From contig JAPLOZ010000059.1 of assembly GCA_026400435.1 (NCBI GenBank), positions 1 through 64,000 of the forward strand: DNA of 64,000 nt. Direction: 5' to 3'. The notes beneath the pieces were generated by a model, which was not told the origin of the DNA, made no database searches, and saw only the letters and a list, made by a program, of their open reading frames with translations. The stretch is from Hyphomicrobiales bacterium (GTDB lineage: Bacteria; Pseudomonadota; Alphaproteobacteria; Rhizobiales; Rhizobiaceae). Shown here piece after piece: positions 25,660-45,036 of this stretch. The position numbers were made by a program, and so were the translations under genes. Within the stretch, counting starts at the first letter, position 1; each line of letters opens with the position of its first letter.

Positions 25660-25707
25660 GACTTCTCCAGAACAACACGCCACCGGCCGCTTGCGCGACC
25701 GCTTCGT

Positions 25708-25886
25708 GCCCCTCTGTCTGAAGCCTGAGAGACTTGCACAACCGGAACCCTGTCGGCTGTGCTTACACCTTCGGCGCGGGGAGAACCCCGACTTTCCAGA
25801 GCGTCCGTCCGTCTACGGTTCTTTGTGCCTGAGAGATTTCGGGCGATTTCCCCTTCGGCGGCAGCTTTCGCTGCTCTCTCCCGCAA
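25708..25886 (-). promoter_or_regulatory. tandem glycine riboswitch upstream of gcvTHP
   Basis: Minus strand: GGGAGAGAGC...CGCCGAAGGGGAAA...AATCTCTCAGGCACAAAGAACCGTAGACGG then second aptamer GCGCCGAAGGTGTAAGCA...AAGTCTCTCAGGCTTCAGACAGAGGGG. Confidence 0.92.
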
Positions 25887-26080
25887 ACATGTGAGTCCCT
25901 TGCGGGACTCTGGACGGGCAGACGCTAGCCCATCCGGGCCGGCTTGTCACGCGGGACCAACAGAAGGGGGAAGAGTCCGGGTTGCCGCGATCACGCGGCA
26001 TGCTGTCTGCGCTTGGCGCACGGTCGCTGGCCGTCGAGTTGGCCTTGCGTTCGCAGCATCGGTGCGGCTTCCAAGATTCG

Positions 26081-43656: not shown

Positions 43657-44382
43657 TCAGAACAGCCAGAAAAGAATGGGAATTGTGCCGGACTCGTGGC
43701 CCTCCTCGATGACCTCTAGCAATGGAATCGCGGCCAGGAAGACAAGGCCGTCGACAAACGCGACGCGAAGCTTTCCGGTCTGGAACGTTACTTCCAAGTC
43801 GTCGCGGTAGAGCGACGGATTGGGCAAAAAGCGCGGAACCCGCTGCAGATAGGAAAGATACTCTCCGCCCAGCGTGGCGGACAGGAATCGTTCCTCGCGG
43901 CGAGCCACGAGGTGAAAGGCTGCCGCACACATCAGCATGGACAAGCAGGCGACAACGTAGCTGCCCGTCTGAGCCCCCACGCCGGCCGCCGCAATCGAGG
44001 AAAAGAGATAGAGCGGGTTGCGGGTGATGGAGTAGGGTCCTGTCGACACGACCTCGGCCGACTTGCGCCCGCCGATGTAAAGCGTCGCCCAGAGCCGCCC
44101 GCCGATCCCGACAAGGATAAGCACAAGACCAAGCGTCTCGATGTATTCATGCGTCAACTCATCATGAATCGATCCTACGAAGACCAACGCCGCGAAGGCG
44201 ATCACGATGATGATTGCAAGAATGGCGCGGCGGCCCGCCTGATATCGAGCCAAGGCGTCTGCGTCTCCGGAATTCACCAGCCCCTCCACGGCATCGTCCG
44301 AGTTATTGCGGACGACGCTGTTGAGCAACCTAGGCAATTCTAGGGCGAGCCGCTGAACTGGACTTTCACAGCCAGTTCCCAA
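43657..44382 (-). CDS. methyltransferase family protein (isoprenylcysteine carboxyl methyltransferase-like membrane protein)
   Basis: GLVLILVGIGGRLWATLYIGGRKSAEVVSTGPYSITRNPLYLFSSIAAAG; ARREERFLSATLGGEYLSYLQRVPRFLPN; true start may be internal. Confidence 0.82.
   Translation of the reverse strand: MGTGCESPVQRLALELPRLLNSVVRNNSDDAVEGLVNSGDADALARYQAGRRAILAIIIVIAFAALVFVGSIHDELTHEYIETLGLVLILVGIGGRLWATLYIGGRKSAEVVSTGPYSITRNPLYLFSSIAAAGVGAQTGSYVVACLSMLMCAAAFHLVARREERFLSATLGGEYLSYLQRVPRFLPNPSLYRDDLEVTFQTGKLRVAFVDGLVFLAAIPLLEVIEEGHESGTIPILFWLF
44345..44359 (+). repeat. 15-bp direct repeat copy 2 (gcgagccgctgaact)
   Basis: Identical to 43595-43609. Confidence 0.7.
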
Positions 44383-44653
44383 AAAGACAACACCCGCCGG
44401 GGGAGGAGATCCGGCGGGTGTCGTTTTTGTGGACGGTTCCCCGGGAGGAGGTGAGGAACCGGCCTATCCGTCATTGCCGGGGAGGAGGTCGGCTTTGACG
44501 AAATTCCTTTCGCCATTTTGAACAGGGGCGAAACCTTGGTTTGACAGCGCCCGCCGGGGGAGGAGGTCCGGCGGGCGCCGTTTTTGTGGACGATCCTCGG
44601 GAGGAGGTGAAGATCGGCCGTATCCCACAGGGTCTGGGAGGAGGTAGACCCTG
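44381..44653 (-). ncRNA. CcsR/'cuckoo'-type sRNA array: six stem-loops with (A/C)CUCCUCCC loops, downstream of DUF1127 gene
   Basis: Minus strand loops: 44628-44653, 44591-44616, 44547-44578, 44476-44492, 44435-44460, 44389-44422. Five contain CCTCCTCCC exactly, the last TCTCCTCCC. Last stem is followed by U-rich TTGTCTTTTT. Confidence 0.85.
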
Positions 44654-44663
44654 GCGGAATTCC

Positions 44664-44804
44664 TTAGATGGCCTTGCGAGCCACTTCGCGGATGTCGCGA
44701 CGGGCAATGCCAAGGTCTTGAAGTTCGCGGTTCGTCAAACCGTTCAGCTCGGACACGGTGTCCCGGTACAAGCGCCAGTTGCGATAATTGCGGATCAGGT
44801 TCAT
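44664..44804 (-). CDS. DUF1127 domain-containing small protein (46 aa, CcaF1-like)
   Basis: MNLIRNYRNWRLYRDTVSELNGLTNRELQDLGIARRDIREVARKAI. Confidence 0.93.
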   Translation of the reverse strand: MNLIRNYRNWRLYRDTVSELNGLTNRELQDLGIARRDIREVARKAI

Positions 44805-45036
44805 CGTCTTCTCAATTCGTCTTTGGTTCGTTCTCTTCGGTACACGCAGAAGGTATGTCCGGTTGGGGGGTTTTAAAACCGCTTTTGGTGCATGGCAGCA
44901 TTGCAAATTGTGCAATGCAGCATGAAACGATTGTAGAGGTCGGCCATAAATCGGGCGAAATCGTCCGAAAGGGTAGCGTTTGCAACGGCTTGGGGCCGTT
45001 TGTCGGCTACTGAATCATCGGCCGCTGGGGGGAGCC

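Follow-up and report, generated by a model that had tools for sequence, protein, structure and literature searches.

Tandem alpha-r14 RNA copies behind a DUF1127 gene and a putative LsrB/VtlR-type operator in a Hyphomicrobiales bacterium

The window, the 64-kb stretch of DNA from a Mesorhizobium-like Hyphomicrobiales bacterium analyzed here, carries on its minus strand (44381–44804) a gene for a 46-residue DUF1127 small protein followed by six hairpins with CU-rich loops. The gene occupies positions 44664–44804 (minus) and matches PF06568 with an E-value of 2.8e-12. The motif CCTCCTCCC occurs in five exact copies on the minus strand, at 44636–44644, 44599–44607, 44558–44566, 44480–44488, and 44443–44451, and nowhere else on either strand of the window. 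Shuffled windows contain it 0.62 times on average, and none of 100 shuffles reaches five. A sixth copy at 44401–44409 (minus) reads TCTCCTCCC and is followed by TGTTGTCTTTTT. Folding places all six copies in hairpin loops. An earlier interpretation made from the letters alone (the sequence-only reading) had described this succession of six motif hairpins behind the DUF1127 gene correctly, but had them starting about 11 nt past the stop codon; the first stem starts about 4 nt past it.

An Rfam search of the minus strand bears out the cuckoo-type identity proposed by that reading. It returns two tandem, full-length matches to RF02344 (ar14, equivalent to alpha-r14 and NfeR1/“cuckoo”), both spanning model positions 1–123 with scores of 95.4 and 88.6 bits against a curated cut-off of 58.8 bits. 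The first copy (44542–44663, minus; E = 3.3e-16) is composed of three hairpins, each displaying the loop CCUCCUCCC. Hairpin 1 (44622–44660, loop at 44636–44644) and hairpin 2 (44588–44619, loop at 44599–44607) are supported by the fold and by two-sided changes in 5 pairs and in 8 of 11 pairs, respectively. Hairpin 3 (44544–44581, loop at 44558–44566), supported by fold and covariation, is followed by UGUCAAACC without a U-run.

The second copy (44385–44506, minus; E = 1e-14) repeats this layout. Hairpin 4 (44467–44502) is supported by fold and covariation and hairpin 5 (44431–44464) by the fold and two-sided changes in 6 pairs; both display the loop CCUCCUCCC, at 44480–44488 and 44443–44451. 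Hairpin 6 (44387–44424) displays UCUCCUCCC at 44401–44409 and has 100% of its alignment cells paired. Its stem is followed by TTGTCTTTTT, and the U-rich tail TGTCTTTTT (44380–44388, minus) is presumed to be an intrinsic terminator. The third hairpin of each copy also resembles a terminator on the plus strand (44547–44578 and 44390–44421), with T5 after the stem, because of the CAAAAACG linker. These hairpins may stop transcription in both directions.

The evidence identifies the minus strand as the RNA. Compared with shuffles, the fold of 44375–44668 has a z-score of −7.2 on the minus strand and −3.3 on the plus strand. When 17 related loci with two copies are aligned, a seven-helix structure has standard pairs in 94.9% of cells, a percentage favored by the fact that the structure was drawn from the same 17 sequences. 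The stronger evidence comes from two-sided changes, which affect 29 pairs versus 12.4 in shuffles, with none of 500 shuffles as high. Sliding the partners along the alignment destroys the pairing signal. The minus strand contains 98 G·U cells and only 12 A·C cells, which together with the covariation establishes it as the RNA, as the sequence-only reading held, and rules out a plus-strand RNA. Invariant columns make up 44 of 48 in the motifs versus 65 of 160 in the stems.

A seventh hairpin, UUUCGCC...GGCGAAA, lies between the two copies (44508–44533, minus) and is devoid of the CCUCC motif. This spacer hairpin, the fourth helix of the alignment, has 90% of its cells paired and two pairs with two-sided changes, UA to CG in five sequences and UA to GC in one. 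The six motif hairpins had all been recognized from sequence and this one had been missed; conserved, covarying, and motif-less, it is added here to the description of the locus.

RF02344 is present in all four genomes of the genus, as a tandem pair in each. A search of named genomes for close DUF1127 relatives, with an alignment as query, yielded 80 loci, mostly from Mesorhizobium. Arrays were counted by motif clusters; a stem-based hairpin count misses units with interior loops. Every one of the 80 loci carries an array of at least two motifs downstream of the DUF1127 gene, confirming the association first proposed from sequence. The antisense strand of these loci, examined as a control, contains no motif cluster, which together with the shuffles rules out chance clustering of the motif. 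Among 76 untruncated Mesorhizobium-type loci, the most frequent array has exactly six motifs in two copies (52 loci), nine motifs in three copies are found in 9, for example in M. composti, M. erdmanii, and M. jarvisii, and the remainder hold two to seven motifs. Arrays of eight or nine motifs stand behind DUF1127 genes in other Hyphomicrobiales families. The six-motif precursor is thus of ordinary size, not “unusually long” as originally described.

Variations on this layout were also observed. Loci from other families of the order (L069–L076 and L087) have nine close-set CCTCCTCCC motifs behind a 49-residue DUF1127 gene. Some Mesorhizobium-type loci have two DUF1127 genes before the array. 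In L053, L054, L057, and L077–L081 the two genes adjoin, with the operator ahead of the first. In an A-T-rich relative (L066, 1002–1910), the order is DUF1127, RNA array, DUF1127, RNA array, which is a duplication of the whole cassette.

In a tree of 135 units, the first copy of the window groups with other first copies (99/96 for the set) and the second with second copies of its genus. Fine branching is unsure in a tree built on only 126 columns. Position labels require 14 changes on this tree, versus 62 in shuffles. Since copies group by position across species, the duplication is old and the two copies are old positional orthologues; a recent duplication of the pair is ruled out. The array is well formed and ancient; its RNAs belong to a known family and its layout to a known type of locus.

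The distribution of T-runs bears on how the transcript ends. Across the multi-copy loci, four or more consecutive T come after 51 of 71 last copies but after only 4 of 81 internal ones. This fits a single precursor ending past the last copy, and is consistent with the one terminator at the transcript end proposed from sequence. Termination or different processing at internal hairpins could also take place. A precursor of this kind has been described for ccaF1-CcsR1-4 of Rhodobacter, where CcaF1 and RNase E mature the CcsR RNAs (PMC10253847). The 46-residue protein, 65–87% identical among the relatives, is by sequence related to CcaF1 and to the DUF1127 proteins that VtlR regulates in Brucella. 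DUF1127 proteins of Agrobacterium act by contact with PhoR, that is, through protein–protein and not RNA interactions (PMC12501420). That 74 of 80 leaders match AAG only might suggest that the DUF1127 gene escapes its own anti-Shine-Dalgarno RNAs by lacking a Shine-Dalgarno sequence, but random 17-mers and control open reading frames whose starts were guessed often give the same score.

Within the leader region of the relatives, conservation is strongest in a putative composite LsrB/VtlR-type operator, TGCACAATTTGCAATGCTGCCATGCA, identified at 44889–44914 (minus) by motif match and conservation. It is built from two overlapping elements. The first matches 7 of the 8 fixed bases of the LsrB site in the nfeR1 promoter, TGCA-N6-GCAT (PMC10746234), the window having TGCA-N6-GCAA with one mismatch. 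The second matches 14 of 15 positions of the VtlR motif CAATGCAGCCATGCA (PMC12595884), which at no more than one mismatch occurs only twice in the genome. The operator lies about 85–110 nt ahead of the DUF1127 start codon, with almost constant spacing within each group of loci. It precedes DUF1127 in 77 of the 80 related loci and occurs in 0 of 312 control tiles taken from these loci. A simple scan found no sigma-70-like promoter. In addition, the genome encodes a LysR protein that matches the Agrobacterium LsrB structure (PDB 9HH1) over all 298 residues with an E-value of 3e-141. Its gene adjoins the abcR-type sRNA gene ar15, and the protein is, judging from this match, the LsrB orthologue. 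The ar15/abcR promoters of the genus show no clear match to the operator patterns tried. VtlR is the known activator of Brucella DUF1127 genes and of Agrobacterium atu1667 (PMC12595884, PMC7486931), and LsrB is the activator of nfeR1 (PMC10746234). The frequency of the operator and the presence of LsrB make LsrB/VtlR control of the operon likely, in place of the RpoHI/II control seen in Rhodobacter.

The same operon could instead be driven by stress sigma factors of the RpoHI/RpoHII type, with the LsrB-like element incidental or secondary. The ccaF1-CcsR1-4 locus of Rhodobacter sets a precedent (PMC10253847), and SmelA075 of S. meliloti, from the same RNA family, is described as stress-induced and as occurring in processed forms (PMC3927594). 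We regard this alternative as unlikely, however, since the most conserved leader block is of the LsrB/VtlR type, LsrB is encoded in the genome, and in related genera DUF1127 genes are under VtlR and nfeR1 is under LsrB.

The locus is probably one LsrB-activated minus-strand unit comprising DUF1127 and two alpha-r14 RNAs that are processed and block Shine-Dalgarno sequences. In this model, a LysR-type activator of the LsrB/VtlR family would bind the composite TGCA-rich operator and switch on a transcript that contains the DUF1127 cistron and then the two alpha-r14 RNAs, and that would end at the U-run past hairpin 6. The precursor would then be cleaved to release the alpha-r14 sRNAs. The enzyme is probably RNase E, acting in the A-rich, unpaired linkers or near the spacer hairpin, and the DUF1127 protein possibly helps, in the way CcaF1 helps in Rhodobacter. 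Freely varying stems would keep the identical CCUCCUCC(C) loops open, and these loops would pair with the purine-rich Shine-Dalgarno regions of several mRNAs, transporter genes foremost, and stop ribosome loading. The tandem copies would supply a higher dose of the same seed.

NfeR1 uses its three anti-Shine-Dalgarno loops redundantly to pair with translation initiation regions, most of them in transporter mRNAs (PMC7143759, PMC10746234). The same loops predict an NfeR1-like action here, with six seeds per transcript, and the earlier proposal that the array may “sequester or mimic” 16S sequences is better phrased as pairing with mRNA Shine-Dalgarno regions. The genome contains only four GGGAGGAGG-N(3-10)-ATG sites, and none for the reversed pattern. 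Two of the four sites start ABC-transporter ATPase genes, on contigs C44 (L097) and C111 (L099). These genes are candidate loop targets, which from a list of four sites is suggestive only.

The array might also act as a decoy for Shine-Dalgarno sequences in general, lowering global translation initiation under stress instead of controlling particular mRNAs. The loops have CACCUCCU in common with the 16S 3′ end, a region not found in these draft genomes, and up to nine identical CCUCC loops are present per transcript. This reading is nevertheless very unlikely, as the loops reach beyond the 16S core (CCUCCUCCC) and relatives of the RNA pair with defined mRNAs (PMC10746234).

About as improbable is a function mainly in cis, in which the hairpins form a 3′-UTR that stabilizes or regulates the DUF1127 mRNA and the anti-Shine-Dalgarno loops have no targets in trans. 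Strong hairpins protect mRNAs in general, and the array lies directly behind the DUF1127 gene on the same strand. Near-invariant loops on stems that drift with compensation are more than a simple stabilizer needs, however; this genome has further alpha-r14 copies that do not adjoin DUF1127, and alpha-r14 relatives act in trans (PMC10746234). Finally, an artefact of chance or of repeats is refuted as the sole explanation, and so is an element of the plus strand such as bidirectional terminators: two stems do have T5 after them on the plus strand, but covariation, the direction of G·U pairs, the Rfam scores, and conservation show that the main feature is neither a chance product nor a plus-strand RNA.

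Further structured RNAs were observed in the genome. An alpha-r14 copy on contig C52 (L003, 1501–1613) is located directly behind a phasin gene (Phasin_2) on the same strand, thus also in a 3′-UTR position, near a tRNA-like stretch. A sequence on contig C73 (L004, 1501–1623) matches alpha-r14 with 51.7 bits, below the Rfam cut-off, and has two clear CCTCCTCCC hairpins and a T-run; it is apparently free-standing. The window also contains a tandem glycine riboswitch (25704–25893, minus) with two RF00504 matches of 64.3 and 44.6 bits.

For the Mesorhizobium lineage as a whole, we see even chances that one LsrB/VtlR operator co-activates a DUF1127 protein together with an alpha-r14 precursor of several modular copies, with six or nine Shine-Dalgarno-blocking loops, whose spacer hairpins mark processing sites. 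If true, a redox-sensing regulator would use one promoter to set both a small protein and an RNA that silences translation with an amplified dose. A single operon with one testable promoter would then join the VtlR/LsrB–DUF1127 link, the LsrB–NfeR1 link, and the adjacency of DUF1127 and cuckoo RNA. Array length emerges as an evolving, positionally conserved trait, and arrays with three, six, or nine loops offer a natural series for asking why cells repeat one antisense seed. The spacer hairpin is a candidate processing signal. No paper joining LsrB/VtlR control to a DUF1127–alpha-r14 operon was found in a literature search that key papers on the family lay outside, and the link is therefore not claimed as a first.

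The locus shares features with several known systems. Like alpha-r14/NfeR1 (RF02344), it has three hairpins per unit, CCUCCUCCC loops except for the sixth (UCUCCUCCC), variable stems with compensatory changes, and an LsrB-type site upstream. The nfeR1 gene, however, is free-standing with its own promoter, whereas here two tandem units and a conserved spacer hairpin lie behind DUF1127, and the operator precedes the DUF1127 gene instead of lying directly upstream of the sRNA.

The arrangement of DUF1127 and cuckoo RNA has been published as “CIN1”. As in the CIN1/ccaF1-CcsR1-4 locus of Rhodobacter sphaeroides, a DUF1127 gene is followed by a run of sRNAs with CU-rich loops and an end terminator, here a presumed one, and the short gene is adjacent on the same strand, an organization kept in all 80 named loci. 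The DUF1127 protein has 46 residues here and 71 in Rhodobacter. CcsR-type units consist of two hairpins (PMC3927594), but both units here have three. The ccaF1 promoter has been shown to be of the RpoHI/RpoHII type (PMC10253847), in contrast to the LsrB/VtlR-type operator known here from sequence. Thus, of the initial CcsR/cuckoo label, cuckoo is retained and close kinship with CcsR is not.

With the VtlR/LsrB regulon of Brucella and Agrobacterium (bab1_0914, its orthologue atu1667, and abcR), the locus shares a gene for a DUF1127 small protein, here matching the VtlR motif at 14 of 15 positions, and the genome shares an LsrB gene beside an abcR-type sRNA. The descriptions of that regulon consulted here mention no alpha-r14 copies on the DUF1127 transcript, whereas two follow the gene in the window. 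AbcR1/AbcR2 (alpha-r15) resemble the array in being tandem sRNAs with anti-Shine-Dalgarno motifs and, if the model holds, in the LsrB/VtlR control known for abcR and in ABC-transporter targets, but they belong to another RNA family, adopt another structure, and reside at a separate locus.
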